From Paracoccus maritimus (GTDB lineage: Bacteria > Pseudomonadota > Alphaproteobacteria > Rhodobacterales > Rhodobacteraceae), in contig NZ_JANAVZ010000011.1 in assembly GCF_025195095.1 (NCBI RefSeq), positions 1 to 64,000 on the forward strand: 64,000 bases of DNA, written 5' to 3'. This document shows positions 13,567-63,082 of the stretch, in pieces. Position 1 is the first letter of the stretch; every line of letters begins with the position of its first letter. Under the pieces are notes generated by a model. It saw only the letters and a list, made by a program, of their open reading frames with translations. It was not told where the DNA came from and ran no database searches. Both the position numbers and the translations under genes were made by a program.

Positions 13567-13583
13567 GGGTACAGGGCCTCCTG

Positions 13584-41365: not shown

Positions 41366-41495
41366 GATAGGTCCCGTAAGCGTCTGATTCCAATTAGCTA
41401 AAAGGCCATAAGTCCTCGCGTAACACAGACTCTAACACCTATTAACACCCGCCGCCTGTGGATAACTTGCGCCAGCGGCGCTTCCGGCCCCGGCA

Positions 41496-41987: not shown

Positions 41988-42004
41988 GGACACGGGTTCT
42001 CCTG

Positions 42005-44115: not shown

Positions 44116-44760
44116 GGGAATGATCTCCGTGATAAAATGAGCCAAGTTGAAACGGTGCTTGCCAGCACAACCGGTAGCGCGTACCCGTAGGCCTCTAAAG
44201 GACAAGGGCGCACTTATGCAAACTCTCAACCTGAGGTTTCGAGATTTGCGTGCGATCTCCCCGGGGCAAAGCCCCGGCCGATGGCGAACCCCGTCGATGC
44301 GACGCGCATCGAGATGGAACGGCGCGCCGCCCCTTCCAAACCATCCCGGGCCAACATGGGCTGTTGGATTGCCCGCCGGCGCGCAGGGCCTCTTCCGCCT
44401 CGACTGGCCCTTTGCGGGCGGTCTGGCGTCAGAGTCGGCGCGCCGGATGCCACGGATCTCGTGGGGCCATGGTGGCCCCGATCCGCGCCAGGCACGCAAG
44501 CTGCGCGCCGCCTGTGCCATGCGCCGGCCTGCCGCCAGTTATGGGGCAGGGCAGGCGGTGGCGCGGTACAGGAGAGCCTGGCACTCGACGGTCCTGCTGA
44601 CCGTCTCGGCCGGGCTATCTTTTCCGCTCCCTGCCCAGCCTTCCGGGGGGCGGCAGGGAACGGAAAAGATCGGCGTCCCCGATCATCCTCTGCCGCGCAT
44701 TTTGGCGGGCAGATGGACGGCAGGGGAACGCCGACGGTCGTCACCGGAGGAGGGCGCGGC
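44116..44760. other. Origin of transfer region, copy 2
   Basis: This region is identical to 14759-15403. The nic-like sequence GCATAAGTGCGCCCTT is on the minus strand at 44204-44219, and the long hairpin before mobA is at 44617-44670. Two oriT sites in direct orientation on one molecule could also be substrates for relaxase-mediated site-specific recombination. Confidence 0.75.
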
Positions 44761-45921
44761 ATGGCCAGCTACCATCTCTCGGTAAAGACCGTGAAGCGGT
44801 CGGCCGGCCGCTCGGCGACAGCGGCCGCGGCCTATCGCTCCGGCTCTGTCATTGTCTGCCACCGGGAGGGGCGCGTGCATGACTATTCCGCCAAGGGCGG
44901 CGTGGCGGAGACCTTCATCGTCGTGCCGGAGGATTCGCCGGTCTGGGCGCAGGACCGGGCCGCGCTGTGGAATGCCGCCGAGGCGCGCGAGACCCGCCGC
45001 AATTCCGTCACCGCCCGCGAATGGGAGCTGGCCCTGCCGGTCGAGATATCCGATGCCGACCGCTCGGCGATCGCCCGCGACTTCGCGCAGGCCCTGGTCG
45101 ATCGCTACGGCGTGGCGGCCGATGTGGCGATCCATGCGCCGCATCGCGAGGGCGACCAGCGCAACCACCATGCCCATGTGCTGACCACCACGCGGGCGCT
45201 TGGCGCCGGGGGGCTGGGCGCCAAGACCCGCATTCTCGATGCCGCGCAGACTGGCGGCGCGGAGATCGAGGAAATGCGGGCGCTCTGGGGCCAACTGCAG
45301 AACCGGGCGTTGGAGCGCGCCGGCGTGGGAGAGCGGGTCGATCATCGCTCGCTGGAGGCGCAGCGCGCCGTGGCGCTGGAGCAGGGCGATGCGCTGGCGG
45401 CCGAGACACTGGACCGGGCGCCAGAAGTGAAGCTGGGGCCGGCGGCCAACGCGATGGAGCGCCGCGAGATGCGCGCGGCCGCGGCCGAGGGCCGGGATTA
45501 CGTGCCGGTGACGGAACGGGGGGCGAAGGTGCACGCCGCCCGCCAGGCGCGGGCGCTCTTCGCCGAAATGCGGGAGCGGTTGGAGATCGCGCGCGACGCC
45601 TACGGGATCGCCCGTGAGCAGGGCGAGGGGCGGGTCAGTGCCGGGCTGGCCGCGCTCAGGGCCGCCGTGGGGAAGGACGGGGTCGGTGAGGAGCTGGGGG
45701 AGGGTAGCGATGCCGGCGACTTGCGCGACAGGCTGGCGGAGATCATCGGGAAAGGTGCACGGGATGGGCGCACGCAATCACAGAAGGGGGTCAATGAGCG
45801 GCTGGCCGATCTGCTCGGGAAAGAGCAGGAGGCGCGTGAACAGTCCGATGTTGGCGAGGAGCGCGGCAAGGAACGGAGTCGAAGCATTGGGCTGGAGCGC
45901 GATGATGGGCTCGAGTTGTAA
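44761..45921 (+). CDS. mobA: MobA/MobL-family MOBQ relaxase, copy 2
   Basis: This 386-residue protein is identical to copy 1 through about residue 336 (AAAAYRSG and HREGDQRNHHAHVL motifs retained). It then has its own acidic C-terminus ending RDDGLEL. It starts at the ATG at 44761 after AGGAGGG. Either relaxase should recognise both oriT copies. Confidence 0.92.
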   Translation: MASYHLSVKTVKRSAGRSATAAAAYRSGSVIVCHREGRVHDYSAKGGVAETFIVVPEDSPVWAQDRAALWNAAEARETRRNSVTAREWELALPVEISDADRSAIARDFAQALVDRYGVAADVAIHAPHREGDQRNHHAHVLTTTRALGAGGLGAKTRILDAAQTGGAEIEEMRALWGQLQNRALERAGVGERVDHRSLEAQRAVALEQGDALAAETLDRAPEVKLGPAANAMERREMRAAAAEGRDYVPVTERGAKVHAARQARALFAEMRERLEIARDAYGIAREQGEGRVSAGLAALRAAVGKDGVGEELGEGSDAGDLRDRLAEIIGKGARDGRTQSQKGVNERLADLLGKEQEAREQSDVGEERGKERSRSIGLERDDGLEL

Positions 45922-47757: not shown

Positions 47758-48081
47758 ATGAGCAAGACCACGAACAAGTTTTCCCCCGAAGTGCGTGAGC
47801 GCGCCGTGCGGATGGTTCTCGACAACGAGGGGCAGCACGGATCTCGCTGGCAGGCGATCACGTCGATCGCAGCAAAGATCGGCTGCTCGGCGAACACGCT
47901 GAACGACTGGGTCAAGAAGGCTGAGATCGACAGCGGCAAGCGTTCAGGCGTTCCCAGCGAGATGGCCGAGAGAATGAAGGCGCTGGAGCGGGAGAACCGC
48001 GAACTGCGTCAGGCCAACGAGATACTTCGGAAGGCGTCGGCGTATTTTGCGATGGCGAAGCTCGACCGCCGGTCGAAGTGA
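47758..48081 (+). CDS. IS3-family transposase OrfA
   Basis: This 107-residue protein has a helix-turn-helix ([20 protein letters not shown]) followed by a leucine-zipper region ([20 protein letters not shown]). It binds the element ends. The stop overlaps the OrfB start by four bases (GTGA), and in this family OrfA and OrfB are usually fused by a -1 ribosomal frameshift. Confidence 0.95.
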
Positions 48082-48986
48082 TGGTGGATTTCATTGAGGC
48101 GCATCGTGATGCGCATGGGGTCGAGCCGATCTGCAGGGTGCTGCCGATCGCCCCCTCCACCTACTATGATCATCTTGCGAAGCGGGCCAATCCGGCCCGC
48201 TTGTCGGACCGTGCCCGTCGTGATGCCGCCCTGCGGCCCGAGATCGAACGCGTCTGGGAGGAGAACTACAAGGTCTACGGCGTCCGTAAGGTCTGGCGGC
48301 AGCTTTTCCGGGAAGGCTTCGTTGCCGCGCGTTGCACGGTGGCACGGCTCATGCGGGACATGGACATCCAGGGCATCATCCGCGGCAAACCGCATCGGAC
48401 AACGATCCCCGACAAGAAGGCCCCGTGTCCTCTGGACAAGGTGAACCGCGAGTTCCGCGTCCCGGCTCCCAACATGCTCTGGGTCAGCGACTTCACCTAT
48501 GTCGCCACCTGGAAGGGGTTCGTATATGTCGCTTTCGTCATCGACGCCTATGCGCGCAAGATCGTCGGCTGGCGCGCCAGCACCTCGGCGCAGACTGGTT
48601 TTGTCTTGGATGCACTGGAGCAGGCAGTCCATGACCGAAGGCCGACAAAGGCCATGGGGCTGGTCCATCATAGCGATCGCGGCTCGCAATATCTGTCCAT
48701 TCGCTACACCGAAAGGCTGGGCGAAGCCGGCATCGAACCATCGGTCGGCAGTGTTGGCGACAGCTATGACAATGCCTTGGCCGAAACGATCAACGGCCTC
48801 TACAAGGCCGAAGTCATTCATCGTCGCGGCCCATGGCGCAGCTTCGAGGCCGTCGAATATGCCACCCTCGAATGGGTCGACTGGTTCAACAACCGCCGCC
48901 TGCTCGAGCCCATCGGGAATATCCCACCAGCCGAGGCAGAAGCCAACTTCTACGCAGCTCTGGAAACTGAAGAGATGGCCGCGTAA
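48078..48986 (+). CDS. IS3-family transposase OrfB
   Basis: This 302-residue catalytic subunit has the DDE(35)E integrase-type core: Asp in [13 protein letters not shown], Asp in [13 protein letters not shown] and Glu in [17 protein letters not shown]. It starts with GTG at 48078 overlapping orfA. All catalytic residues are present, so the element is probably active. Confidence 0.95.
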
Positions 48987-49966: not shown

Positions 49967-51244
49967 TCATGCCTTCGCTTCTTCCTCCAGCCATGATTCC
50001 AGCTTGTCATAGACCAAGTCGCGCCGGTAATGGGCATCATAGAACGCGCGGGCGGCCAAGCCCATCTTAGCTCGTTCTTCGGGCGACATGGCCATCAGCG
50101 ACAACACGGCGGATTTCAGCGCCTCGACATTGCCGGGCGCGACGGCGATGCCCCCCCCCGAAGCAGTCACGACGCGGGCGCCCTCTCCTGCCAACGCCGC
50201 AAGCACCGGTTTCTGGCAAGCCATGTAGCATTGTACCTTGTAGGGGACGGTCAGATTGAAAATGTCGTTTTCCTTCAGGCTGACCAGAAGCGCATCAGCA
50301 TGTGCGAAAAAATCGGGCATCGTTTCCTCGGGGTGGCGCCCTAGAAGAAGGAAGCGATCCTCTATCTCCAATTCAGCTACACGAGCCTTAACCCGGTCGA
50401 AATCACGCCCACTTCCTAAGATTACCCATCGTAAATCCTTTCGTTCGCGCAGTGCCTCGGCTGCGGCAAGGATAGTATCGAAGTTCTGGCTTTCACCGAT
50501 ATTGCCTGCGAACATTACCGTGAACTGGCTTGGCGCCCAGGGCAGACCGCGATCAGCGGCCCGCTCGGGCGTCAGCGGCCGGAACATGGCTGGCGCCGTG
50601 TTTGGAAGAACCCGGATCCGGTCCGCCGGAATCCCGAACCGCGTGATCATCGGTGGAAAGGCGGCGCTCTGGACCAGGACTAGATCGGCGCGGCGCAGAA
50701 TCCATCCCGAAACCCAGGTCAGCGGCCGGACGATCAATGGATTATTCAGCTTCAGCGTGTAAATGGCGCTTTCTGGCCAAATGTCCTGCACCCAGCAGAC
50801 CAGGGGGCTGCGATGCCGCCGCGCTAGTACGATCGCCGGAAGGGCCTGGAACACCGGCGAGGTGAGCGAGGTGAAGATTACGTCGGGACGGTTGCGCAGT
50901 CGCCAAAGCGCAGTCCAGCTGCCGGTCACCGGGAATGTCAGGTAATTGAACAGAAGCTGCAGCTTGCTTTTGCCGCGAGCCACAGACCGGGCGCGATGCA
51001 CACGGGCGCCGCGCCAACTCTCCTCGCGGCGCTCGCGGTTGGAATAACCCTCGAAGAAGGTCTCACGCCCGTAATTGGGCACTCCCGTCACCACGCTCAC
51101 GTCGTGGCCCCGTTGGACCAGATCCTCGACGATGGCGTTGTTGCTGAACTGTTCGGGAAAGAAATACTGCGCCACGAAGGCGATTGACAGCCCGCGCCGA
51201 CCGGGCGGGGCCTTCGGATCGGTGTCGGCAGCGGGCTGGGTCAT
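49967..51244 (-). CDS. wbuB: WbuB-type glycosyltransferase family 4 (L-FucNAc transferase)
   Basis: This 425-residue GT-B enzyme starts its catalytic fold at IAFVAQYFFPEQFSNNAIVE. The C-terminal donor-binding region has FTVMFAGNIGESQNFDTILA and a terminal domain with GGGIAVAPGNVEALKSAV. WbuB proteins usually follow fnlABC and transfer L-FucNAc to the lipid-linked GlcNAc. Here it overlaps fnlC by four bases in that same order. The donor sugar is inferred from context. Confidence 0.85.
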   Translation of the reverse strand: MTQPAADTDPKAPPGRRGLSIAFVAQYFFPEQFSNNAIVEDLVQRGHDVSVVTGVPNYGRETFFEGYSNRERREESWRGARVHRARSVARGKSKLQLLFNYLTFPVTGSWTALWRLRNRPDVIFTSLTSPVFQALPAIVLARRHRSPLVCWVQDIWPESAIYTLKLNNPLIVRPLTWVSGWILRRADLVLVQSAAFPPMITRFGIPADRIRVLPNTAPAMFRPLTPERAADRGLPWAPSQFTVMFAGNIGESQNFDTILAAAEALRERKDLRWVILGSGRDFDRVKARVAELEIEDRFLLLGRHPEETMPDFFAHADALLVSLKENDIFNLTVPYKVQCYMACQKPVLAALAGEGARVVTASGGGIAVAPGNVEALKSAVLSLMAMSPEERAKMGLAARAFYDAHYRRDLVYDKLESWLEEEAKA

Positions 51245-52395
51245 GTCAGGTCGTTCTGCCGGATTCCGTCCCAGGCGTTCGACAGCCGGGCGGTGCCGGC
51301 GATCAGGCTCAGCACTCGTTCTGAGGTATTAAGGATGGTATAATCCTCGGGCAGGGGGTGGGGAATGCCGGCTTCGACCCGTTCCGCATGAAGCCGGGTC
51401 GTCATGGCCACAGCCTCACGAATGGTATCGCGGTTCAGGCCGGTGACGACGATGCAGCCCGCATCCAGGCCCTCAGGACGTTCGATGGCATCGCGGGGGG
51501 TGATCGCCGGAAAGCCCAGGATCGAGCTTTCCTCGGCGATGGTGCCGCTGTCCGAAATCACGCAGAAGGCCGATTTCTGCAGCTTGTTGTAATCGATGAA
51601 GCCGAAGGGCGTCATGTATTGCACACGCCCGTCGATCTCGGCATCCTCCAGGGCTTCAATACGCTTACGGGTGCGCGGATGGGTCGAGACGATGACCGGC
51701 ATGTCGTATTCCGCCGCCAAGGCGTTCAGCGTGCCCAGCAACGTACGCAGACGCGCGCTGTTGTCCACGTTCTCTTCGCGGTGCAGCGAAACGACGAAAT
51801 ACCGTCCCTGCTCCAGCGACAGCCGGGCCAGTGCGTCCGAAGCCTCTATTTTCCGGGCGTAATGGGTCAGCACCTCACGCATCGGCGATCCGGTCAGATA
51901 GATCCGGCGGTGCTGGATGCCCTCGGACAGCAGATGGCGGCGGGCATGTTCGGTATAGACCAGGTTGAAATCGGCGATATGGTCCACCAGCTTGCGATTG
52001 GTTTCCTCGGGCACGTTGCGGTCGAAGGACCGGTTGCCTGCCTCCATGTGATAGACGGGCACCTTCAGGCGGCGGGCAATTATGGCCGAGATGGCCGAGT
52101 TGGTGTCACCCAGGATCAGGACCGCATCGGGTTTTTCCGCGCGGATCACCTTTTCACTTTCAATCAGGATCTTGCCCAGTGTTTCACCCAGCGTCCCGCC
52201 GCCGGTTCCCAGGAAATGATCCGGCTTGCGCACGTCAAGTTCGTTGAAGAAGATATCGTTCAGGCTGTAATCCCAGTTCTGTCCGGTATGGACGATCCGA
52301 TGATCGGTATGGGCGTCCAGCCGCGCCATCACGCGGGACAGGCGGATGATTTCGGGACGCGTCCCGAGGATCGTCATGACTTTCAGCTTGCTCAC
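51241..52395 (-). CDS. fnlC: UDP-2-acetamido-2,6-dideoxy-L-talose 2-epimerase (FnlC/CapG)
   Basis: This 384-residue protein belongs to the WecB-type non-hydrolysing 2-epimerase fold (TILGTRPEIIRLSRVMARLD, HMEAGNRSFDRNVPEETNRK, VSLHREENVDN, SDSGTIAEESSILGFPAI). The start TGQNWDYSLNDIFFNEL is typical of FnlC/CapG rather than WecB proper. It makes UDP-L-FucNAc in the last step of that pathway. It overlaps both neighbours by four bases. Confidence 0.88.
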   Translation of the reverse strand: MSKLKVMTILGTRPEIIRLSRVMARLDAHTDHRIVHTGQNWDYSLNDIFFNELDVRKPDHFLGTGGGTLGETLGKILIESEKVIRAEKPDAVLILGDTNSAISAIIARRLKVPVYHMEAGNRSFDRNVPEETNRKLVDHIADFNLVYTEHARRHLLSEGIQHRRIYLTGSPMREVLTHYARKIEASDALARLSLEQGRYFVVSLHREENVDNSARLRTLLGTLNALAAEYDMPVIVSTHPRTRKRIEALEDAEIDGRVQYMTPFGFIDYNKLQKSAFCVISDSGTIAEESSILGFPAITPRDAIERPEGLDAGCIVVTGLNRDTIREAVAMTTRLHAERVEAGIPHPLPEDYTILNTSERVLSLIAGTARLSNAWDGIRQNDLT

Positions 52396-53564
52396 GGGGA
52401 TTCCTTAAGAACCGGATCAAAGTAGGTGTCGGGCGCGGCCGGGTCGAACAGATCATGGGTCCAGAACAACGTCAGCAGCGGCCGGTTCCCGACATTCTCG
52501 ATTGAATGGGTGTGCAGGGTCGGCATATCCACCGGCGCCGGTTTCCGTCCGCTGACCCGGTATGTCCAGACCGGACCGCCCAAGACGCGGCGGATGCGGA
52601 TAATTGCCTCACCCTCAAGAACGAGGAAGCGTTCGATCTTGTGCAGGTGGAAATGATTGCCCCGCGTGATGCCGGGCTGCGTCCAACTTGCAAAGCTCTG
52701 CCCGCCGCCGCCACCTTTCACTGTCTCGAATAATGTTCCTCGAACATCGGTGTGGAGACGCAAAGGGCGCGGGAAGGACTGTGGATAAAGCGCGGCTCGA
52801 TAACTGTTGAACAGATCACGAATAAAGGGCTGAGACAGATCCGGGAGCAAGTTCACTGCGTAGTCGGCATGAAATCGCCGCAGGGTGTCGAACAGCGAGG
52901 GCACTTCCGTTGGGCGTGGGGCAGGGACTAGTTCGCCCTGCAGTCCCTGCATTGCAGCGTCGATGGTGACCTGCGCCGCTGTTCCTGCATAAAGAAGCTG
53001 AACCCTACCTGCCGGGTCGACATTTGGGGTTTCTTCCCGGATCACCTTGTCGATGAAGGTGGCGGTGACGTTGTTGTAGTTCGGCCGCGCGCACTCTCCG
53101 AAAATGTGGGGCAGGATCATGTCGGTGAAGCCGCCGCCGATTCCGGCCAGAATTTCGGCGGCTTGGCGCTTGGCTTGCCCATAGACGGACGTTCCCTGCG
53201 CATGGGTCGAATTGGCATAGACCACATGTGGAGTTGCGCCCTGTGCGCGGCAAATATTAGCCAGGCGCCGCGCAATGGCCACATTGCCCTCGATCTCGGT
53301 ATCCGAGCCTCGGTTGACGCCCGCAAAATGCAAAACGCTCTCTGAGCCCGAGACCGCCTTGCTCAGCACTGCGTCGTCCTGAAAGGCTGCGCGATCCAAC
53401 TGGACGATCTCAAAGGGCTCGGTCTCGTTCCGGTAGCGGGCCATGCAGTTGGCCGCGTGAAGCCGCGCAGACGCATGCCAGCCGAGCAGGCCCGCCGCGC
53501 CGGTCACGACGATCTTTCGCAACCTGTGCGGTCTCTCCGCCGGAACGTTCGCCTCGTTCGCCAT
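52392..53564 (-). CDS. fnlB: UDP-2-acetamido-2,6-dideoxy-hexulose reductase (FnlB/CapF)
   Basis: This 390-residue bifunctional protein has an N-terminal short-chain dehydrogenase domain (VVTGAAGLLGWHASARLHAA) and a C-terminal cupin (GITRGNHFHLHKIERFLVLE). This is the CapF arrangement, in which the cupin binds zinc and performs C3 epimerisation before reduction at C4. It sits between fnlA and fnlC in the operon. Confidence 0.88.
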   Translation of the reverse strand: MANEANVPAERPHRLRKIVVTGAAGLLGWHASARLHAANCMARYRNETEPFEIVQLDRAAFQDDAVLSKAVSGSESVLHFAGVNRGSDTEIEGNVAIARRLANICRAQGATPHVVYANSTHAQGTSVYGQAKRQAAEILAGIGGGFTDMILPHIFGECARPNYNNVTATFIDKVIREETPNVDPAGRVQLLYAGTAAQVTIDAAMQGLQGELVPAPRPTEVPSLFDTLRRFHADYAVNLLPDLSQPFIRDLFNSYRAALYPQSFPRPLRLHTDVRGTLFETVKGGGGGQSFASWTQPGITRGNHFHLHKIERFLVLEGEAIIRIRRVLGGPVWTYRVSGRKPAPVDMPTLHTHSIENVGNRPLLTLFWTHDLFDPAAPDTYFDPVLKESP

Positions 53565-53604: not shown

Positions 53605-54633
53605 TTATTCTTCCGGCTCGACCTGCCGGCCCTCCAGGATGCCTTCGACGAATTTCAGCTTGCGCAGCAGCGCCTGCATTCCCTCGACATCCAGTCGGAC
53701 GGTGTTGTGGGAATTATAGTCAACCGCTTGCGAGATGCGCACCTCGCCTTCTTCGACGAACTTGTCATAGTTTAGATCCCGCAAATCCGGCGGCACCCGG
53801 TAATAGTTGCCCATATCCTCGGCAGCGACCATTTCCTCGCGGCTCAGCAGAACCTCGAACAATTTCTCACCGTGGCGCGTACCGATCACGTTGATGGGAT
53901 GGTCAGGCACCCCCATCAAGCCCGTCAGCGCCCGTGCCAGGACATCGATGGTCGCAGCCGGGGCCTTCTGCACGAAGATTTCACCGGGCTTACCGTGTTC
54001 GAAGGCATACAGCACCAGATCCACCGCATCGTCCAGAGTCATCATGAAGCGGGTCATCGACCCATCCGTGATGGTGATGGGTTTCCGGGCCCAGATCTGG
54101 TTGGCGAAAAGCGGGATCACGGACCCGCGCGAGGCCATCACGTTGCCATAGCGCGTGGCGCAAATTACTGTGTGGTTGCTGGAGCGTGACTTGGCGACGA
54201 TCACCTTTTCCATCATCGCCTTGCTGATCCCCATGGCGTTGATAGGATAGACGGCCTTGTCGGTGCTGAGGCAGACGACCCGTTCGACGCCGCAGACGAT
54301 CGCGGCTTCCAGGGCATTTTCAGTTCCCAGGACATTGGTCTTGACCGCTTCCATCGGGTGGAACTCGCACGAGGGCACCTGTTTCAGCGCCGCGGCGTGA
54401 TAGACATAATCGGCGCCGCGCATAGCGTTCAGGATTGACTGATAATCGCGCACATCGCCGATATAGAACTTCAGCTTGTCGCTGTTGTAGCGCTTGCGCA
54501 TGTCGTCCTGCTTCTTCTCGTCTCGGCTGAAGATGCGGATTTCGCGCAGGTCGGAGTCCAGGAAGCGGCGCAGAACGGCATTGCCGAAAGATCCGGTGCC
54601 GCCGGTAATGAGAAGGGTCTTGTTAGTAAACAT
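53605..54633 (-). CDS. fnlA: UDP-GlcNAc 4,6-dehydratase/5-epimerase (FnlA/CapE)
   Basis: This 342-residue enzyme is started at the ATG at 54633 (MFTNKTLLITGGTGSFGNAV), where the NAD-binding motif begins; the longer frame has no family match. FSRDEKKQDDMRKRYNSDKL, HAAALKQVPSCEFHPMEAV and the SMK-type active site (STDKAVYPINAMGISKAMME) identify the CapE/FnlA subfamily over PseB. It converts UDP-GlcNAc to the L-arabino 4-keto intermediate, which is also the PseB product. No pseB is in the window, so this enzyme may serve both pathways. Confidence 0.9.
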   Translation of the reverse strand: MFTNKTLLITGGTGSFGNAVLRRFLDSDLREIRIFSRDEKKQDDMRKRYNSDKLKFYIGDVRDYQSILNAMRGADYVYHAAALKQVPSCEFHPMEAVKTNVLGTENALEAAIVCGVERVVCLSTDKAVYPINAMGISKAMMEKVIVAKSRSSNHTVICATRYGNVMASRGSVIPLFANQIWARKPITITDGSMTRFMMTLDDAVDLVLYAFEHGKPGEIFVQKAPAATIDVLARALTGLMGVPDHPINVIGTRHGEKLFEVLLSREEMVAAEDMGNYYRVPPDLRDLNYDKFVEEGEVRISQAVDYNSHNTVRLDVEGMQALLRKLKFVEGILEGRQVEPEE

Positions 54634-54893
54634 GAACGCTCGTCTGGGTTGTGTTGTTGACTGGCCGTTCGTCTGAGGGCCCGCGAATCTTATTCCAGCC
54701 TTTTCGTCATCAGAACAGGAGATGCAAGGCTCTGCCACTCGGAATGATCCATCCGGAGAGGCTTGCGCAGGAAGGCCCATCCTTCTAGAGACTGGCCTTG
54801 ATACATCTTATTCCGAGGCGTAATAGCCCCCGAAGATCCTGCCCGTCCCGCCCGGAAAACTCTGCAGATCGCCCCCTGGACCAAGGCCTGTTG

Positions 54894-56081
54894 ATGAAGA
54901 CCGGAAAACGACCCAAGGTGCTGGCCGTAGCCGATTACTACCTGCCTGGCTTTCAGGCCGGAGGCCCGATCCGCACCATTGTCAACATCCGCCAGGCCCT
55001 TCTTGACCAGATCGAGTTCGACCTCATCACCCGCGATCGTGATCTGGGCATGACCGGTCCCTATCCGGGCATTGCCGCGGATTGCTGGCTCGGCGATCAG
55101 GGCGCACGCCTCTACTACGCCAGTCCGAAGACCTTCGGTCCAAAAAGCATCAGCATGGCGATCGGGCAGGGTGATTACGATATCATCTATCTGAACAGCT
55201 TCTTCAGCGTGAAGGGTTCTATCCTGCCGAATGCAGTCCTTCGCAGGAAGGAAAAAGAATCCCATATCCTCATAGCGCCTCGGGGCGAATTCTCGCCGGG
55301 CGCCCTTTCGCAGAAGACTGCCAAGAAGAAGGCCTTTCTGACTTTTGCCAAACTATCCGGTCTCTATCGGAACGTACATTGGCATGTCTCATCGGAAGCA
55401 GAGAAAGCAGATCTGCTTCGCGTCTTCCCGGTGGAACGAGCACGGGTTCACATTGCCGCCGATCCCGTCGCCATCTCTGTCGATGACCACAAGCATCCAT
55501 TGAAGACCGCAGGTGTTCTCAGCCTGGTCTTCATTTCACGCGTTTCCCCGATGAAGAACCTTGATGGCTTGATCGCGATCCTGAAGGAGGTTCGCCGAAA
55601 GGTCGCACTGGCAATTCATGGACCCGCCGAGAACGAAGCCTACCTGAGACAATGCAAGATGCTGTCCGAAACGCTTCCGTCGAATATCTCGATTACGTGG
55701 AAGGGTCCGATCACGCCCGACGAGGTCCGCAGTACCTTTGCGCGACACGATGCCTTTGCCTTTCCCACACTGGGGGAAAACTTCGGTCACGTGATCTTTG
55801 AAGCACTCGATTCCGGAACGCCGGTCCTGATCAGTGACACGACCATGTGGAAAGAGGACGGAACGCCTGCACTGCGGGTTCTGCCCCTGCATGACAAAGC
55901 GAAATGGGTCAGGGCCATCGAGGAAGCAGCCGACCGCGACGAGACCGGCCAGAGAAATGCCAGAGCGGCGGCTTTGGGCTACGCCAAGGACTATGCTAGC
56001 AAAGATCGCGGCAGGAAGGATACCTTGGCGATGTTCCGCAGGATCGCAGCCGATCGGGTCAGCGCGACTTCAGGGTCGTAG
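54894..56081 (+). CDS. Glycosyltransferase family 4
   Basis: This 395-residue GT-B enzyme is started at the ATG at 54894 (MKTGKRPKVLAVADYYLPGF). GGPIRTIVNIRQAL is the N-terminal acceptor-side motif, SLVFISRVSPMKNLDGLIAI opens the donor domain, and FAFPTLGENFGHVIFEALDS is the GT4 nucleotide-sugar site. It is divergent from fnlA and is the first gene of the plus-strand half of the locus. The sugar is not predictable. Confidence 0.85.
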   Translation: MKTGKRPKVLAVADYYLPGFQAGGPIRTIVNIRQALLDQIEFDLITRDRDLGMTGPYPGIAADCWLGDQGARLYYASPKTFGPKSISMAIGQGDYDIIYLNSFFSVKGSILPNAVLRRKEKESHILIAPRGEFSPGALSQKTAKKKAFLTFAKLSGLYRNVHWHVSSEAEKADLLRVFPVERARVHIAADPVAISVDDHKHPLKTAGVLSLVFISRVSPMKNLDGLIAILKEVRRKVALAIHGPAENEAYLRQCKMLSETLPSNISITWKGPITPDEVRSTFARHDAFAFPTLGENFGHVIFEALDSGTPVLISDTTMWKEDGTPALRVLPLHDKAKWVRAIEEAADRDETGQRNARAAALGYAKDYASKDRGRKDTLAMFRRIAADRVSATSGS

Positions 56082-56228
56082 CAAATCTGCGCCGCTGTGA
56101 AAGAGCCGCAGATCACGCTGTTGAAGAACGTGTCCGAAGCTCAGCGGCGCCGGTATTCCGCATTGAACAATCGCGCTCTTGCGAGCAGAGGGTGAACCTC
56201 ACGGGACCGCGCCGGATAGCGCATCCGT

Positions 56229-57503
56229 ATGGGAGAACAGGGCTTGTCGGGACAATACGGACGCCTTCTGAACATCGCCTTGCGAATGACGACCCTGATC
56301 GTCCGCTTCCTGCTGATGTTCTTCCTGGCGCGGTTCCTGGAACCTGAGGCGGTCGGCTATTATGGCCTGTTCACCGCTTCGATCGGCTTCATCCTCTATT
56401 TTGTAGGCCTCGACTTCTACATCTATACGACACGCGAACTGCTGCAATTGCCCCAGCACGAACGCGCCAAGCCGCTGAAGGCGCAGATCCTGATGTCGTT
56501 GTGCCTCTATGCAGCCGTGCTGCCGATCACCTTCGCGCTGCTCGTGCATCTCGACTGGCCGCGTTCCCTGATCTGGTGGTTCCTGGCGATTGCCGTGCTC
56601 GAACATGTGAATCAGGAGGTGTTCCGGCTGCTGATCGCCCTATCAAAGCAGATTCAGGCGGGGATCCTACTGTTCGCGCGCCAAGGGGTCTGGGCGCTGG
56701 CGGTGATCGCTCTAATGGCGGCGCGCCCCGAGACCCGCGGGCTAAATACGGTCATGGGGCTGTGGGCCGGATCGGGAATTGCGACAGTCTTGCTGGGGCT
56801 GTGGTATATTCGTCGGCAGTCCTTCGGAAGCTGGCGCCATCCGGTCGACTGGGCCTGGGTGCGCAGGGGCATCAAGATCAGCACTGCCTTTTTGATCGCC
56901 ACCCTTGCTCTGCGGGCGATGCAGACCTCGGACCGCTACCTCGTGGAAGCCTTCACGGGGCTGGAAGGCGTGGCAGGCTATGTGCTGTTCCTGGGCGTTG
57001 CCAGCGCGCTGATGACCTTCCTGGACGCGGGCGTTTTCGCCTTCGCCTATCCCGAACTGATCTCGCTGCATCACCAAAAGGATCATGCGGCCGCTCGCCG
57101 GCGCGTCCAGCGAATGCTGTGGCAGACGCTTAGCTGCTGCGGGTTGTTCGCCGTGGCCAGCTGGTTGGTGCTGCCTTGGCTTCTGACTTGGATCGGCAAT
57201 CCGATTTATGGCCGGATGATCGACCTTTATCCTTGGCTGCTGCTGGCCACGATCCTAAACGCGATCGGCTTGGTGCCGCATTACGCCCTTTATGCCAAGG
57301 GTAGTGACCGCCCCATCATCCACAGCCATCTGGCCGCTTTGCCGACCTTCCTGCTGATGGCTTGGCTTCTGGAAAAAATCTTGCCGAACTTGGCAGTGCC
57401 GGTTGCTTTGGCTATGTCTTTCGCGTTGATCCTCGTCTGGAAGACCGTTGCTTATCTGCGGCAAGGTTTCGGTGATTCCACGAACCCGCCAATATGGCAA
57501 TGA
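56229..57503 (+). CDS. Wzx-type polysaccharide flippase
   Basis: This 424-residue integral membrane protein has 12 or so predicted segments, beginning IALRMTTLIVRFLLMFFLAR, and FLEPEAVGYYGLFTA-like sequence near the N-terminus typical of the MOP flippase family. It would move lipid-linked repeat units across the inner membrane. No Wzy polymerase is recognisable in the window. Confidence 0.82.
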   Translation: MGEQGLSGQYGRLLNIALRMTTLIVRFLLMFFLARFLEPEAVGYYGLFTASIGFILYFVGLDFYIYTTRELLQLPQHERAKPLKAQILMSLCLYAAVLPITFALLVHLDWPRSLIWWFLAIAVLEHVNQEVFRLLIALSKQIQAGILLFARQGVWALAVIALMAARPETRGLNTVMGLWAGSGIATVLLGLWYIRRQSFGSWRHPVDWAWVRRGIKISTAFLIATLALRAMQTSDRYLVEAFTGLEGVAGYVLFLGVASALMTFLDAGVFAFAYPELISLHHQKDHAAARRRVQRMLWQTLSCCGLFAVASWLVLPWLLTWIGNPIYGRMIDLYPWLLLATILNAIGLVPHYALYAKGSDRPIIHSHLAALPTFLLMAWLLEKILPNLAVPVALAMSFALILVWKTVAYLRQGFGDSTNPPIWQ

Positions 57504-57529
57504 ACCTACAAAGACAGGGTGCTTCCCGC

Positions 57530-58690
57530 ATGATCCGCTACGGCCAGCAAGACATCACTCAGCAAGACATCGACGCTGTCACCGAGGTGCTGAGATCGGT
57601 CAACCTCACGCAGGGACCGTCGATCTCCCGGTTCGAGCAGGCGGTAATGGACCACACAGGGGCTGCCCATGCAGTCGCGGTGAACAGCGCGACCTCGGCG
57701 CTGCATATCGCCTGCGTGGCGCTGGATCTGGGGCCTGGGGATTGGCTATGGACCACGCCTAATACCTTCGTCGCCTCAGCCAATTGCGGACTTTATTGTG
57801 GCGCGCGGGTGGATTTCGTCGACATTGACCCTCGGACCTACAACCTCTGTCCGGCTACCCTTGAGCAAAAGTTGATCGCCGCCGAAAAGACCGGCCAGCT
57901 GCCCAAGGTCGTAGTACCCGTGCATCTGAGCGGCCAGCCCTGCGACATGGCGGCCATCCATGCGCTGGGACAGAAATACGGTTTCCGCATCATTGAGGAC
58001 GCCTCGCACGCCATTGGGGGGAGCTATAAAGGCGAGCCGATCGGCAATTGCCGTTACAGCGACATCACAGTGTTTAGCTTCCATCCGGTCAAGATCATCA
58101 CCACGGCCGAAGGCGGAATGGCCATGACAAACTGCCCCGATTTGGCCACCCGGCTTAGCCTATTGCGCAGCCACGGCATTACCCGCGACGCCGCGCTGAT
58201 GACCCAGCCAATGGATGGACCGTGGTACTACCAGCAGGTGGCACTTGGCTTCAATTACCGGATGACCGATCTTCAGGCTGCCTTGGGGATCACGCAGATG
58301 ACCCGGCTGACGCATTATGTCGAACGCCGTCACCAGATCGCGGACCGCTATGCCCATCTGTTAGCCGACCTGCCGGTGATCTTGCCGTGGCAAGCGCCCG
58401 ACAGCTATTCGGCCTGGCATCTTTACGTGATCCGCTTGAAGCTTGACCGGATCGGTGTGTCTCATCGCAAGGTGTTCGAAGATTTCCGCGCCCACGACAT
58501 CATGGTTAACCTACATTACATCCCCGTGCATACCCAGCCTTATTATCAGCAAATGGGCTTCCGTCAGGGCGACTATCCCCAAGCCGAGCAATATTACCGC
58601 GAGGCGATCAGCATTCCGATGCACCCTCTAGTGACGGAGGCCGAGCAGGACTTTGTCGTCCAAGTCCTGCGCGAGGCCGTTGCCTCATGA
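57530..58690 (+). CDS. pseC: UDP-4-amino-4,6-dideoxy-N-acetyl-beta-L-altrosamine transaminase
   Basis: This 386-residue PLP enzyme is started at the ATG at 57530 (MIRYGQQDITQQDIDAVTEV); an ATG at 57494 overlapping the flippase is possible. DegT/DnrJ motifs include VNSATSALHIACVALDLGPG, EDASHAIGGSYKG and the PLP-Lys region VFSFHPVKIITTAEGGMAMT. The sequence pattern is that of PseC. It aminates C4 in the second step to pseudaminic acid. Confidence 0.93.
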   Translation: MIRYGQQDITQQDIDAVTEVLRSVNLTQGPSISRFEQAVMDHTGAAHAVAVNSATSALHIACVALDLGPGDWLWTTPNTFVASANCGLYCGARVDFVDIDPRTYNLCPATLEQKLIAAEKTGQLPKVVVPVHLSGQPCDMAAIHALGQKYGFRIIEDASHAIGGSYKGEPIGNCRYSDITVFSFHPVKIITTAEGGMAMTNCPDLATRLSLLRSHGITRDAALMTQPMDGPWYYQQVALGFNYRMTDLQAALGITQMTRLTHYVERRHQIADRYAHLLADLPVILPWQAPDSYSAWHLYVIRLKLDRIGVSHRKVFEDFRAHDIMVNLHYIPVHTQPYYQQMGFRQGDYPQAEQYYREAISIPMHPLVTEAEQDFVVQVLREAVAS

Positions 58691-59388
58691 GGCTGGGAGT
58701 CATCCCCGCGCGGGGCGGCAGCAAGCGCATTCCGCGCAAGAACGTGAAGATGTTCTGCGGCCAACCGATAATCGGCTGGTCGATCAGGACGGCGCTTGAA
58801 TCTGGCTGCTTCGATCGGGTGATTGTCAGCACCGATGATGATGAAATCGCCGCCGTCGCACGGGATGCTGGCGCAGAGATCCCCTTTCGCCGCCCTAGTG
58901 ATCTTTCGGACGATCATACTGGCACCATCCCCGTCATCGCCCACGCCGTAGCTTGGCAAGCCGCCAACGGTCCCGCTCCGTCCGAGGTCTGCTGTCTTTA
59001 TGCAACGGCCCCCTTTGTCCGCGCGGGCGACCTGCAACGCGGCCTGTCGATTTTGCAGGATAGCGGGGCCGATTACGCCTTTTCCATCACCAGTTATGCC
59101 TATCCTATCCAGCGCGCGTTGCGCCTGACTGCAGATGATCGCGTCGAGATGTTCCAGCCCGAACATTTTACCACCCGGTCTCAGGATCTGGACGAGGCTT
59201 GGCACGATGCGGGCCAGTTCTACTGGGGCACCGCCGCCGCCTGGTTGGCGCAAAAACCTCTGTTTGGTTGCGACAGTGCCGCTGTCATCCTGCCGCGCCA
59301 CCGGGTCCAAGACATTGACACGCCCGACGACTGGCTGCGGGCCGAACTGATGTTCCGCATCCTGCGCGAAATGCCGGCAACGGCGTGA
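58687..59388 (+). CDS. pseF: Pseudaminic acid cytidylyltransferase
   Basis: This 233-residue protein has the N-terminal CMP-sugar synthetase motif MRLGVIPARGGSKRIPRKNV, then GWSIRTALESGCFDRVIVST and the DTPDDW C-terminal signature. It activates pseudaminic acid with CTP. It overlaps pseC (ATGA) and pseG, so the operon is translationally coupled. Confidence 0.93.
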   Translation: MRLGVIPARGGSKRIPRKNVKMFCGQPIIGWSIRTALESGCFDRVIVSTDDDEIAAVARDAGAEIPFRRPSDLSDDHTGTIPVIAHAVAWQAANGPAPSEVCCLYATAPFVRAGDLQRGLSILQDSGADYAFSITSYAYPIQRALRLTADDRVEMFQPEHFTTRSQDLDEAWHDAGQFYWGTAAAWLAQKPLFGCDSAAVILPRHRVQDIDTPDDWLRAELMFRILREMPATA

Positions 59389-60518
59389 CCATGGCGGGCG
59401 GAAAAGCACCTCGCATTGCCTTTCGGGTCGATGCCTCTCTGTCAATCGGAACCGGGCATGTAATGCGCTGCCTGACGCTGGCCGACAGGCTGCGCGATCA
59501 GGGAGCCGTCTGCCGCTTTCTCTGTCGTTCGCACAAGGGCGATCTGACCTCATTGGTCGAGGAACGCGGTTATGCTGTCGCTAGGCTTACCTGCCGGGAT
59601 ACTGCCGCGAAATCCGCCATCCCGGCTGAAAGGGCGTCCGGCCCCGCCCATGCGCATTGGCTGGGCGTAGATTGGGCCGAGGACTGCGCCGATACTGTCG
59701 CCGCGCTGGGAACCGGGGAGACGGACTGGCTGGTCGTCGATCACTATGCCCTAAACCGGAGTTGGGAAAGAGCGTTGCGCCCTCGGGTGCGCCGACTGAT
59801 GGTGATCGACGACCTTGCCGATCGCAGCCATGACTGCGATCTGCTGCTGGACCAGACGTTAGGCCGGATTCCTACCGATTATGCGGCGCATGTGGGAAGC
59901 GAGACCCAACTGTTGCTAGGCGCAAGATTTGCGTTGCTGCGGCCCGAATTCAGGAAGCTGCGTCAAGAAAGCCTGGCGCGGCGGGTCAGGCCCGAATTCA
60001 ACCGGATTTTGGTGACGATGGGCGGCATGGATCAGGACAACGTGACTGGTGCCGTCTTGGACATGCTGGACCGCGCCCCTCTGCCTGAAGACCTGCAGAT
60101 CGTGGTGGTCATGGGGCGGAACGCGCCCTGGTTGGCAGAGGTCCGTCGGCGCGCAGCTTGCATGGGGCGCCTGACCAGGGTGTTGAGTGGCGTGGACGAC
60201 ATGGCCCGGCTGATGGCCGACAGCGACCTAGCCATCGGTGCGGCCGGCGGCACGGCTTGGGAACGTTGCTGCATGGGATTGCCCAGCTTCTGCCTGGTCT
60301 TGGCCGCCAACCAGAGCGTTATTGCAACGATTTTGGATGCTGCAGGCGCCGCCGTGACGGTATGCGATCCCAATGACATTGCGGCAGTTCTGGCGCGGTA
60401 TGATAGCCAAGCCGGCATGACCGCATTCTTGGCTGGCTTGGCTAAAGCATCGGCCAGTATAACCGATGGCGAGGGTGCCCTGCATGTGGCGCGAAAGATG
60501 ATGACCTGGCATGATTAA
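59385..60518 (+). CDS. pseG: UDP-2,4-diacetamido-2,4,6-trideoxy-beta-L-altropyranose hydrolase
   Basis: This 377-residue enzyme has the PseG N-terminus (IAFRVDASLSIGTGHVMRCL, His being catalytic), VVDHYALNRSWERALRP and the C-terminal GT-B-like site AIGAAGGTAWERCCMGLPSF. It releases UDP to give the free 6-deoxy sugar. The start is either GTG at 59385 in overlap with pseF or the ATG at 59391. Confidence 0.92.
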   Translation: MTMAGGKAPRIAFRVDASLSIGTGHVMRCLTLADRLRDQGAVCRFLCRSHKGDLTSLVEERGYAVARLTCRDTAAKSAIPAERASGPAHAHWLGVDWAEDCADTVAALGTGETDWLVVDHYALNRSWERALRPRVRRLMVIDDLADRSHDCDLLLDQTLGRIPTDYAAHVGSETQLLLGARFALLRPEFRKLRQESLARRVRPEFNRILVTMGGMDQDNVTGAVLDMLDRAPLPEDLQIVVVMGRNAPWLAEVRRRAACMGRLTRVLSGVDDMARLMADSDLAIGAAGGTAWERCCMGLPSFCLVLAANQSVIATILDAAGAAVTVCDPNDIAAVLARYDSQAGMTAFLAGLAKASASITDGEGALHVARKMMTWHD

Positions 60519-61011
60519 CAGCTGCAGCCTCCGCCCTCTGACCGAGAATGACCTGGCCATGGTCCTGTCCTGGCGCAACGAACCCGCAGTCCGCGCGGTC
60601 ATGTTCAACCGGCATGAAATCGGAATGGATGAACATCGTGACTGGTTCGCCACAGCCAGCCGAGACGAAACCCGCCGCCTGTTGCTGGTCGAGGAGGCCG
60701 GGGTACCGATCGGCTACGTCCAGTTCGCCAATGTTCGACCCGGCGGGGTATCCGACTGGGGCTTCTACGCGACTCCAAGCGCGCGAAAGGGCACGGGGCG
60801 CAGACTGGGCGCCGCCGCGCTGAACCATGCGTTCGGTGCCTTGGGTTTGCACAAGGTCTGTGGTCAGGCGCTTGCCTCGAATACGGCTTCGATCCGAATG
60901 CATTGCGCGCTAGGGTTTTGTCAGGAAGGCATTCTGCGGCAGCACCATCCGATCGACGATCGCCACGAGGATGTCATTTGCTTCGGACTTTTGTCCCATG
61001 AATGGGACTGA
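60511..61011 (+). CDS. pseH: UDP-4-amino-sugar N-acetyltransferase (GNAT)
   Basis: This 166-residue GNAT protein begins with LRPLTENDLAMVLSWRNEPA, typical of PseH/RimJ-like enzymes, and has the acetyl-CoA loop ATPSARKGTGRRLGAAALNH. It acetylates the C4 amino group between the PseC and PseG steps. It overlaps pseG by eight bases. Confidence 0.9.
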   Translation: MINSCSLRPLTENDLAMVLSWRNEPAVRAVMFNRHEIGMDEHRDWFATASRDETRRLLLVEEAGVPIGYVQFANVRPGGVSDWGFYATPSARKGTGRRLGAAALNHAFGALGLHKVCGQALASNTASIRMHCALGFCQEGILRQHHPIDDRHEDVICFGLLSHEWD

Positions 61012-61029
61012 ACCAATCGGGAACTGGAT

Positions 61030-62088
61030 GTGACCACCATCAAAATTGCAGATCGCTTCATCGGGCCTGATTACCCGCCCTATGTCATCGCCGAACTGTC
61101 GGCCAACCATAACGGCCAGCTGGAGACCGCGCTGCGCATCATCGACGCAGCGAAAGCGGCCGGGGCAGATGCCGTCAAGCTGCAGACCTACCGGCCCGAC
61201 ACCATCACGCTGGACAGCGATGCAGAAGAATTCCGCATCAAGGGCGGACTTTGGGATGGGCGCACACTCTACGAGCTTTACGCCGAGGCGCATATGCCCT
61301 GGGAGTGGCATAAGCCCCTGTTCAACCATGCGCACAGAGTCGGCATCACGATTTTCTCGTCCCCTTTCGACTGCACGGCGGTTGACCTACTTGAGGATTT
61401 GGGCGCCCCGGCCTACAAAATCGCCTCGTTCGAAGCCGTGGATTTGGCGCTGATCCGCTATGCTGCCTCGACCGGCAAGCCGATGATCATCTCGACCGGC
61501 ATGGCTGATGCCGAGGAGGTCGCCGAAGCCATCGCGGCGGCGCGGGACGGGGGCTGCAACCAGCTTGCGATCCTGCATTGCGTCAGCGGCTATCCGGCCC
61601 CGGCAGCGGATTACAACCTGCGCACCATTCCTGACATGATCCAGCGGTTCGGCCTGGTCACGGGCCTGTCGGACCACACGCTGGATAACACCACCGCCAT
61701 TGCCAGCATCGCTCTAGGGGCGTCGATCATCGAAAAGCACTTCACCCTGGACCGCAGCGGCGGCGGGCCCGATGACAGCTTCTCGCTGGAACCGGCGGAA
61801 ATGGCCGCCCTCTGCGCCGGCGCCAGGACGGCCTGGCAGGCACTTGGACAGGTAGATTACGGCCGCAAATCCAGCGAGCAGGGCAATGCCCAGTTCCGCC
61901 GGTCCCTGTATTTCCTGCGTGACCTGAAGGCGGGCGAGACGGTCGACGCCAACGCCGTCCGCAGCGTCCGCCCCGGCTTTGGCCTTGCGCCCCGGCACCT
62001 GGACCGGGTCATCGGCGCGACGCTGACCCGCGATGTGGCCGCAATGACCCCGGTCAAGGCCGCGGATCTGGATGGGTTCGAGACATGA
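61030..62088 (+). CDS. pseI: Pseudaminic acid synthase
   Basis: This 352-residue protein of the NeuB/PseI family starts with GTG. Motifs are YVIAELSANHNGQLETALRI, the metal-binding region GLSDHTLDNTTAIASIALGA and EKHFTLDRSGGGPDDSFSLE, then a C-terminal antifreeze-like SAF domain (RRSLYFLRDLKAGETVDANA). It condenses the 6-deoxy sugar with phosphoenolpyruvate. The GGGPDDSFS motif favours PseI over NeuB. Confidence 0.93.
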   Translation: MTTIKIADRFIGPDYPPYVIAELSANHNGQLETALRIIDAAKAAGADAVKLQTYRPDTITLDSDAEEFRIKGGLWDGRTLYELYAEAHMPWEWHKPLFNHAHRVGITIFSSPFDCTAVDLLEDLGAPAYKIASFEAVDLALIRYAASTGKPMIISTGMADAEEVAEAIAAARDGGCNQLAILHCVSGYPAPAADYNLRTIPDMIQRFGLVTGLSDHTLDNTTAIASIALGASIIEKHFTLDRSGGGPDDSFSLEPAEMAALCAGARTAWQALGQVDYGRKSSEQGNAQFRRSLYFLRDLKAGETVDANAVRSVRPGFGLAPRHLDRVIGATLTRDVAAMTPVKAADLDGFET

Positions 62089-62170
62089 AGCGGCACACTG
62101 AATTATAGCATTTCTGTTGGCGGATATTTCCGAAAGACAATTTCGCCCACTAATATCATCAGGAATAAAA

Positions 62171-63082
62171 ATGAAAATCCCTGAAATTTCCTTTGAGGGA
62201 AGAAGCGCCTTTATTGTCACGAAACCGCTTCAGTTGATGATCGCAGGCAGCATCATCGATCAGCTGGGGATAAAAGATAATGTCGACATCTTGTTGACAG
62301 ATGATTTTTCAGGGTCTCGCGCGGCGTTCGAAAGATACAAGGCAACGAACAATGCGGCACCATGGGGCGAGATGAAATTCTTTGACTGCAAGAGTGCAGC
62401 ATTTCGCCACATCCAGAAACAGAAAAATTATAAGCAGATCCTGGTTGATTCCGATGTTGGAGCGCGAAATGCACTGCAACTTGCAAGACTACTCATATCC
62501 TACAAAAAAGTTAGAATATTTGCTTACGAAGAGGGAATAGGAACATATCGATCCGACCTTTATGCATCAACAAAGAAATTTATTCTTGACAGGTTTGGTG
62601 TCGGCACATGCTTTGGTGGATCAGCCATGACTTCTGGAATATTTGTACATGAACCAGAAAGATACAAGGAGGCTACAAAATCCAAGGCAAGGATGGTTTG
62701 TGGAATAAGAAAAAGTCTTGGCGAATTCATTCTTCATAACATGGAATTTCTTAGCTATCTATTTGGCTTCAGCGGGATTCCACATTCAGGAAACAATGAT
62801 TATTGTCTGCTTTATCTTACAAATTACTCTTTCGATCAAAAAATTATTTCACAATTCCGGAATAATGGCAAAGATTTCTTTGTAAAGCCGCATCCGCACA
62901 TCAAGAACATAAACCCGACAGCCCTTGGCGTTGATGCTGACGCACTACTGCCAGCAGTAACTCCCGCAGAGATAATAATAAAATTTCTGCGGGACAGATA
63001 TGAGAAAGTCACCGTATATCATCACGGCAGCAGCGCCGCATATTACATGTCTGACTCTGACGTGAAATTTATTCTTCTTTAG
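62171..63082 (+). CDS. Putative sialyl/pseudaminyltransferase
   Basis: This 303-residue protein is started at the ATG at 62171 (MKIPEISFEGRSAFIVTKPL). It has the two short motifs shared by bacterial sialyltransferases of several families: EEG in AYEEGIGTYRSDLY and HP in FFVKPHPHIKN. The SS-like motif is VYHHGSSAAYY. Position right after pseI suggests CMP-pseudaminic acid as donor. The gene is much more AT-rich than the pse operon, so it may have been acquired separately. Confidence 0.6.
   Translation: MKIPEISFEGRSAFIVTKPLQLMIAGSIIDQLGIKDNVDILLTDDFSGSRAAFERYKATNNAAPWGEMKFFDCKSAAFRHIQKQKNYKQILVDSDVGARNALQLARLLISYKKVRIFAYEEGIGTYRSDLYASTKKFILDRFGVGTCFGGSAMTSGIFVHEPERYKEATKSKARMVCGIRKSLGEFILHNMEFLSYLFGFSGIPHSGNNDYCLLYLTNYSFDQKIISQFRNNGKDFFVKPHPHIKNINPTALGVDADALLPAVTPAEIIIKFLRDRYEKVTVYHHGSSAAYYMSDSDVKFILL

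Follow-up and report, generated by a model that had tools for sequence, protein, structure and literature searches.

A predicted FnlA-type dehydratase as a possible shared first enzyme of L-FucNAc and pseudaminic acid synthesis in Paracoccus maritimus

The plasmid-like contig of Paracoccus maritimus analyzed here carries a pseudaminic acid (Pse) gene set lacking PseB next to an fnlABC module, and FnlA is predicted, with good confidence, to be the shared first enzyme of the L-FucNAc and pseudaminic acid pathways, making PseB dispensable. FnlA would convert UDP-GlcNAc into UDP-4-keto-6-deoxy-L-AltNAc (UDP-2-acetamido-2,6-dideoxy-beta-L-arabino-hexulose). FnlB would then epimerize C3 and reduce C4, and FnlC would epimerize C2, giving UDP-L-FucNAc or a close relative; in the other branch, PseC would aminate the same keto sugar at C4, with PseH, PseG, PseI and PseF leading on to CMP-pseudaminic acid. 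We infer that this PseC would receive its keto sugar from this FnlA and that one polysaccharide may contain both Pse and L-FucNAc.

Supply of PseC by FnlA best explains the locus because CapE/WbjB (FnlA) and PseB reportedly make the same keto sugar. Passages in two publications say so (PMC3699295, PMC7439481), in agreement with the original prediction on the FnlA/CapE product, and one also describes the reactions catalyzed by CapE and FlaA1 as identical (PMC3699295). In one publication (PMC7198725), FnlA is described as epimerizing positions 3 and 5; a C3-epimerized product should be unsuited to PseC, which counts against supply by FnlA. According to a passage in PMC7439481, SpsM, an M-type relative from B. 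subtilis, turned out to be C5-retaining, so sequence alone does not prove stereochemistry.

Organization of the locus and identity of FnlA

The window, a 64,000-nucleotide stretch of the contig, comes from a 3.93-Mb genome assembled in 44 contigs with completeness rated 100%. FnlA (53605..54633, minus strand), assigned by profile, motif and structural match, lies outside the pse operon. It is followed on the same strand by a divergent FnlB/CapF-type reductase with a C-terminal cupin (52392..53564; NF047837, 175 bits against a cut-off of 500; cupin PF14667, 145 bits), a FnlC/CapG-type UDP-HexNAc 2-epimerase of the WecB family (51241..52395; WecB model, 250 bits) and, last in the run, a group 1 glycosyltransferase identified by profile match (49967..51244), whose position in the E. 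coli fnl cluster is presumably occupied by WbuB. The fnlABC set is predicted to make UDP-L-FucNAc or a close relative. A spacer at 54634..54797, a putative promoter region, separates this run from the divergent plus-strand unit.

The plus-strand genes begin with a second group 1 glycosyltransferase (54798..56081; profile match), which neighborhood comparison finds at several FnlA-type pse loci, and a Wzx-like flippase (56229..57503; PF01943), homologs of which stand immediately upstream of pseC at several such loci. Then come the PseC aminotransferase (57494..58690; profile match from residue 13), the PseF CMP-pseudaminic acid synthetase (58687..59388), the PseG UDP-sugar hydrolase (59385..60518), the PseH N-acetyltransferase (60511..61011) and the PseI pseudaminic acid synthase (61030..62088). 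All five reading frames are open, and all five exceed their NCBIfam cut-offs: PseC with 561 bits (423.5), PseF with 331 (205.7), PseG with 300 (153.6), PseH with 120 (93.1) and PseI with 495 (340.3). Given overlaps of 4 bp (PseC/PseF), 4 bp (PseF/PseG) and 8 bp (PseG/PseH) and an 18-bp gap before PseI, they are likely to form one transcription unit. The original prediction of a complete PseC, F, G, H and I set in one operon is thus upheld, with the operon itself as the likely arrangement. Downstream lies a candidate nonulosonate transferase, possibly a Pse transferase (62117..63082, plus strand), with a weak match to the polysialyltransferase family PF07388 (24 bits).

The best and far strongest profile for FnlA is TIGR04130, at 634 bits. 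This is below the curated cut-off of 730; the aligned stretches of the solved structures of Ab-WbjB (4j2o) and CapE (3vvb) also fall below it, at 691 and 556 bits, so the cut-off is stricter than the FnlA/CapE/WbjB family and does not mark its boundary. Aligned to 4j2o and CapE, the active site reads TDK-x-M-x3-K (D125, K126, M134 and K138), with Met replacing Tyr. The match to 4j2o is nearly full length, and the start codon is likely the ATG at 54633 rather than 54780, since the match then begins at residue 1. FnlA falls short of a PseB assignment on two counts: it scores 319 bits with the PseB profile TIGR03589 (cut-off 407.75; FlaA1, 524 bits), and it carries MGISK instead of the Tyr-type YG[AS][TS]K. 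It is predicted to be a UDP-GlcNAc 4,6-dehydratase that inverts C5.

Absence of PseB and other possible suppliers

Over the whole genome, TIGR03589 gave nothing above its cut-off, the matches besides FnlA being three of at most 36 bits, and PF02719 gave FnlA at 347 bits and four others that do not exceed 52 bits. Strong PseB/CapE-type matches in the genome are limited to FnlA. These searches bear out the original prediction that PseB is missing: they revealed no pseB elsewhere in the genome, and a distant PseB was ruled out on the same basis. A real pseB missed through an assembly gap or an unsequenced plasmid is very improbable. Although the assembly is split into 44 contigs and a second plasmid could be absent alongside this plasmid-like contig, its completeness is rated as full, the pse run is bordered by further genes rather than a contig end, and the same accident would be needed every time in the 15 other FnlA genomes that share the absence.

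The keto sugar might instead come from a Pen/Pal-type pair, a WbpM-type dehydratase with an epimerase, or an unrecognized SDR. Pen and Pal are described in passages of two papers as replacing PseB in Bacillus thuringiensis (PMC7439481, PMC8987622), and long WbpM-length relatives are present in many of the other genomes. We nevertheless regard this as quite unlikely. Pen itself scores 298 bits with TIGR03589, so a Pen-type enzyme would have been detected; no Pen-type 5,6-dehydratase appeared in the source genome, where matches besides FnlA stay at or below 36 bits, and PseB-profile searches of this and the relatives' genomes ruled out such an enzyme as supplier. Two further genomes (G296 and G304) have FnlA as their sole genome-wide match at E<=1e-40, and a passage in PMC7910423 states that the GlcNAc-configured keto sugar is no substrate of PseC. 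A supplier with no relation to these enzymes is conceivable.

Recurrence and evolution of the arrangement

In a set of 80 loci whose PseC is closely related to the one described here, PseB lies nearby in 59 and not in 21. Fifteen of the 21 genomes without PseB near pseC have no PseB over the cut-off but do have FnlA, which scores 316-326 bits, is 73-85% identical to the source FnlA and carries MGISK in every case; FnlA and the pse genes share a contig in 14 of the 15. FnlA occurs in 15/19 of the other genomes that lack PseB and have a close PseC, as against 1/50 PseB-bearing genomes searched (50 of the 59 PseB-locus genomes, leaving out L112, L115, L118, L139, L141, L144, L146, L147 and L148). 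Together with the lack of pseB and of a Pen-like enzyme in the source genome, this strengthens, as a prediction, the original proposal that one dehydratase could feed both pathways. A further FnlA-type pse locus lies on a conjugative plasmid of Mesorhizobium sp. 113-3-3, for which the plasmid alone was searched.

These counts also bear on whether FnlA serves L-FucNAc only, the pse run being inactive or making another product after losing its first step. No PseB match in the source genome exceeds the cut-off, as this would have it, but the five pse genes are open and score over their cut-offs, and FnlA is distributed unevenly between PseB-less and PseB-bearing genomes. PseB-less pse sets recur in the 15 other FnlA genomes, and PseC remains 68-94% identical pairwise over 16 loci, which is hard to reconcile with a dead pathway. 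We consider this explanation unlikely; like a Pen/Pal bypass or a hidden PseB, it is less likely than FnlA feeding PseC.

The opposite state within one PseC group also speaks for supply by FnlA: L071, L079 and L082 have a PseC nested among FnlA-type PseC proteins together with PseB, and their genomes gave no FnlA match at E<=1e-60. Other loci depart from the pattern. G512 holds PseB and FnlA in one locus, in which the PseI match contains stops and FnlB is in two pieces. Four PseB-less loci (L073, L084, L088 and L092) have no ordinary FnlA anywhere in the genome; L073 and L088 stop at a contig end or close to one and L092 is on an 8-kb contig, while L084 is neither. Some loci seemed from their first flanks to have a partnerless FnlA; extended loci and a PF14667 search found FnlB farther out, and the three Mesorhizobium loci carry an RmlD-like SDR in its place.

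In an even phylum sample of 398 genomes, PseI exceeded its cut-off in 62, of which 58 had PseB over the cut-off. The exceptions were the source genome, G414 and G592, in which the contig bearing PseI measures 5.8 and 6.4 kb, respectively (G414 having a 260-bit relative elsewhere), and G373, with no match at E<=1e-60. The sample added no further FnlA-type case, so the arrangement is rare overall. A family sample of 295 genomes gave PseB in 15 of 17 PseI genomes, the exceptions being the source genome and G252, where a long WbpM-type protein alone matches at E<=1e-40.

Trees were built without frames below 85% (PseC) or 80% (FnlA) query coverage, FnlA below 48% identity, any second copy from a locus, and six repeat loci (L001, L005, L158-L161). 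PseB presence changes only 3 times on the PseC tree, and a test of FnlA against loss of PseB that allows for phylogeny has just 2-3 independent pairs and lacks power; the strong raw association (FnlA in 16/20 PseB-less vs 2/54 PseB-bearing) does not amount to many independent events and may reflect few. On the FnlA tree, the partners of one PseC group come from several lineages. A specialized, pse-dedicated FnlA clade was rejected, pse-linked FnlA being intermixed with ordinary FnlA and at least 4 changes being forced. PseC and FnlA distances co-vary over 16 loci (r 0.31, p 0.015), compared with r 0.39 for PseC-PseF and r 0.27 (p 0.07) for PseC-PseI; PseC-FnlC distances hardly do (r 0.12, p 0.19).

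Comparison with known systems and implications

The locus resembles the PseBCHGIF pathway of Campylobacter and Helicobacter (psaABCDEF in Acinetobacter) in having PseC, H, G, I and F, for which the same chemistry is predicted, and differs in that PseB is absent from the genome. We take psaA to be PseB. In the curated table of A. baumannii capsules in PMC9676051, psaA is written in each of the three psa module kinds (24, 13 and 2 loci). With FnlABC/WbjBCD/CapEFG the locus has in common the order fnlA-fnlB-fnlC followed by a glycosyltransferase; here, FnlB is divergent and the module is proposed to supply the first intermediate to a second pathway. Pen/Pal of B. thuringiensis likewise replace PseB at the same step, according to a passage in PMC7439481, but as two enzymes for one step, whereas here one enzyme from another sugar pathway is proposed as shared. 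The gdr gene of Acinetobacter K loci also accompanies different sugar modules (fnr/gdr, qnr/gdr), as tabulated in PMC9676051; its product is described in part of PMC3628348 as UDP-4-keto-6-deoxy-D-GlcNAc, for D-sugars. The gdr system has no nonulosonic acid branch. Our literature search found no earlier description of FnlA replacing PseB.

The balance between the two sugars that had been originally proposed is unsupported: a precursor in common sets PseC and FnlB in competition, which alone does not balance the two products. If FnlA does feed PseC, it may offer an alternative first enzyme for CMP-Pse made in vitro, where further C5 epimerization by PseB is, as noted in part of PMC7910423, a known nuisance. 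In addition, pseB would be unsafe as a marker of pseudaminic acid synthesis, and pathway predictions that score such genomes as incomplete would be wrong. More broadly, it is probable that a PseB-less pse lineage depends on the FnlA of a neighboring module for L-FucNAc or a related L-sugar, the modules traveling together, plasmids included, among alpha-, beta- and gammaproteobacteria; FnlA would then be the branch-point enzyme of two unusual surface sugars sharing one precursor.

Organization of the pse–fnl locus and its contig

On the plus strand, genes for a glycosyltransferase and a Wzx-like flippase are followed by pseC, F, G, H and I and then by a possible nonulosonate transferase. As the original prediction stated, all five Pse enzymes are encoded in the window; each exceeds its curated NCBIfam cut-off, and the genes are tightly spaced (overlaps of 4, 4 and 8 bp, then an 18 bp gap). 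The minus strand carries FnlA (53605-54633), FnlB (52392-53564), FnlC (51241-52395) and a glycosyltransferase (49967-51244) in a single run, with spacings of 40, -4 and -4 bp. The ATG at 54633 is most likely the FnlA start, because the alignment from there with the solved Ab-WbjB structure (4j2o) begins at residue 1. FnlA scored 634 bits with the FnlA/CapE/WbjB profile TIGR04130, compared with 319 bits with the PseB profile TIGR03589. The curated TIGR04130 cut-off of 730 bits is not decisive, since Ab-WbjB (691) and CapE (556) also fall below it. The Met-type active site (D125, K126, M134, K138) aligns with those of 4j2o and CapE. FnlA is 74–85% identical to its counterparts at three compared loci (L081, L085, L086), unlike FnlB, which shares only 29–30% identity with theirs.

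The contig looks like a plasmid, judging from a RepA-type replication initiator (PF10134, 40168-41238), a TraG/VirD4 coupling protein (42005-43780), two MobA/MobL relaxases of equal Pfam score (14924-16555 and 44281-45921), and repeats in which parts of 13051-14383 recur within 41472-43740 at 81–99% identity. The first 133 bp of the contig (1-133) recur as a direct repeat (99%) at 47797-47929 in an IS3-like element (about 47758-48986); the assembly therefore probably ends inside a further copy of this element. The contig also bears a glmS-type gene (SIS and glutamine amidotransferase domains, 6871-8688), which may supply extra UDP-GlcNAc precursor; Mesorhizobium plasmid MesoLj113b2 carries glmS too, next to its pse–fnl locus.

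Absence of PseB and the candidate shared precursor

The original prediction that PseB is absent held in a search across all 44 contigs of the 3.93 Mb genome (100% complete): no protein exceeded the PseB cut-off (407.75 bits), and FnlA was the only strong relative, followed by three matches of at most 36 bits. Within the wider PF02719 family, FnlA scored 347 bits and four other matches at most 52 bits. The method detects real PseB, as shown by scores of 449–560 bits in all 50 PseB-locus genomes searched and 524 bits for the Helicobacter pylori FlaA1 stretch. That a real pseB was missed is less likely, as the same accident would be required in 16 genomes. Supply of the PseC substrate by a Pen-type enzyme, the Bacillus thuringiensis alternative described in PMC7439481, is also the less likely explanation: the aligned Pen stretch reaches 298 bits with the PseB profile and would have shown up, whereas nothing but FnlA exceeded 36 bits in the window genome, and two further genomes (G296, G304) had no match besides FnlA at E≤1e-40.

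According to PMC3699295, CapE catalyzes 4,6-dehydration and C5 epimerization, the same reactions as FlaA1, and PMC3699295 and PMC5774825 assign the next step, C3 epimerization and C4 reduction, to CapF/WbjC. PseC and FnlB should therefore use one pool. Two cautions apply: in a figure legend of PMC7198725, FnlA is given as epimerizing at positions 3 and 5, and SpsM, whose triad is of the same Met type, was found to retain the C5 configuration (PMC7439481). Because PseC rejects the GlcNAc-configured epimer (PMC7910423), FnlA stereochemistry is the critical point. In the paper passages searched, mostly outside the subscription literature, we found no earlier proposal of FnlA in place of PseB; a Pse pathway that lacks PseB and is coupled to ordinary fnl genes tentatively appears new.

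Recurrence of FnlA-bearing pse loci without PseB

Searching an 84,980-species collection with the window PseC yielded 157 pattern matches, 146 relatives and finally 80 loci, whose fetched DNA contained PseB in 59 cases, FnlA without PseB in 10 and neither in 11. The genomes of the latter 21 were searched whole. Two (L096 and L128, Psychrobacter) encode PseB outside the locus, 15 have no PseB over the cut-off and an FnlA at 316–326 bits, and four (L073, L084, L088, L092) lack both PseB and an ordinary FnlA, although the L073 genome has a divergent FnlA relative (286 bits, 55% identical). The 15 FnlA proteins share 73–85% identity with that of the window, and all contain MGISK. FnlA and the pse genes lie on one contig in 14 of these genomes, with FnlA just past the first flank in four; in the remaining one (L080), FnlA is on a different contig, near a window-like Wzx and glycosyltransferase. 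The 15 genomes include alphaproteobacteria (Mesorhizobium, Tsuneonella, a Rhodobacteraceae MAG), betaproteobacteria (Massilia, Rhodoferax, Vogesella, Pseudogulbenkiania, Polaromonas) and gammaproteobacteria (Pseudomonas, Halopseudomonas, Stutzerimonas). A dead pse pathway is less probable, as it would not readily explain why open pse sets persist in many genera.

Another instance comes from MesoLj113b2, a conjugative plasmid of Mesorhizobium sp. 113-3-3, with the order flippase (52% like that of the window), pseC-F-G-H-I, two genes, FnlA (84% identical, with MGISK), RmlD-like SDR and FnlC-like epimerase; across the whole plasmid, the only PseB-profile match was its FnlA (319 bits). Elsewhere, L154 (genome G305) encodes a divergent FnlA (55% identical, MGISK) with an RmlD-like SDR and an FnlC-like epimerase, and the pse locus of that genome is interrupted by a contig end. 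Another group of PseB/CapE relatives, scoring about 254–273 bits, occurs at L247 (G414, 7670-8760) and similarly in G395, G456, G475, G505 and G536; L247, the sole member read, carries MGTSK.

Association, evolutionary history and a probable branch point

FnlA also occurred in one of the 50 PseB-locus genomes searched (of 59), G317, where fnlABC lies on a separate contig (L157). Both states were known for 74 rows of the PseC tree, comprising the window, 71 of the 80 loci and two from an even phylum sample (L237 and L249). Among these, FnlA was present in 16 of 20 PseB-less versus 2 of 54 PseB-bearing genomes (Fisher p 1e-10), or in 17 of 20 if the divergent L073 relative is counted. This p value overstates the case, because all 16 FnlA-type PseC proteins fall within one 25-row group of the 83-row tree (SH-aLRT 94), PseB presence requires only 3 changes (FnlA presence 8–9), and only 2–3 independent pairs exist. 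The group also holds five PseB-type rows and four with neither enzyme. PseB-type loci L071, L074, L079 and L082 are nested among FnlA-type loci, so a switch between the two types, in one direction or the other, seems possible for this pathway. L071 is labelled an Akkermansia muciniphila MAG, and its PseC groups with Limnohabitans, indicating contamination or transfer.

The variant is rare: in the phylum sample (398 genomes), 58 of 62 PseI genomes had PseB, and no FnlA-type case besides the window was found. Two counter-cases were identified. In G512, fnlABC shares a single locus (L237, 3209-14660) with a PseB-containing pse set, although the PseI match there contains three stops and FnlB is split in two; L084 has a pse set without PseB or FnlA in its 21 kb and, genome-wide, only a long WbpM-length relative. 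At L239 (G373, 2962-7478), PseI adjoins a 1154-aa open frame containing a PseG-like part, and at E≤1e-60 that genome yielded neither a PseB- nor an FnlA-type match.

Pse-linked FnlA proteins do not group on their own in the tree but are interspersed among FnlA from genomes in which no pse set is known, with at least 4 changes forced; this indicates that one PseC group was joined to several ordinary FnlA lineages. Over 16 loci, PseC distances correlate with those of FnlA (r 0.31, p 0.015) about as strongly as with those of PseF (0.39), PseG (0.44) and PseI (0.27, p 0.07); the value for FnlC is lower (r 0.12, p 0.19).

Counting the window, 13 of the 16 FnlA-type genomes have a strong CapF cupin match (PF14667, 145–170 bits) next to FnlA, one gene away in G306. 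The three Mesorhizobium genomes have no strong CapF cupin (at most 29.3 bits), and FnlA is followed there by an RmlD-like SDR and an FnlC-like epimerase. All 16 genomes thus carry a second L-sugar module along with FnlA, a pattern that suits a branch point better than simple gene replacement. At such a point, one pool would be drawn on by both PseC and FnlB. The results lend no support to the original prediction of balanced production of the two sugars; a common precursor for both creates competition between them.
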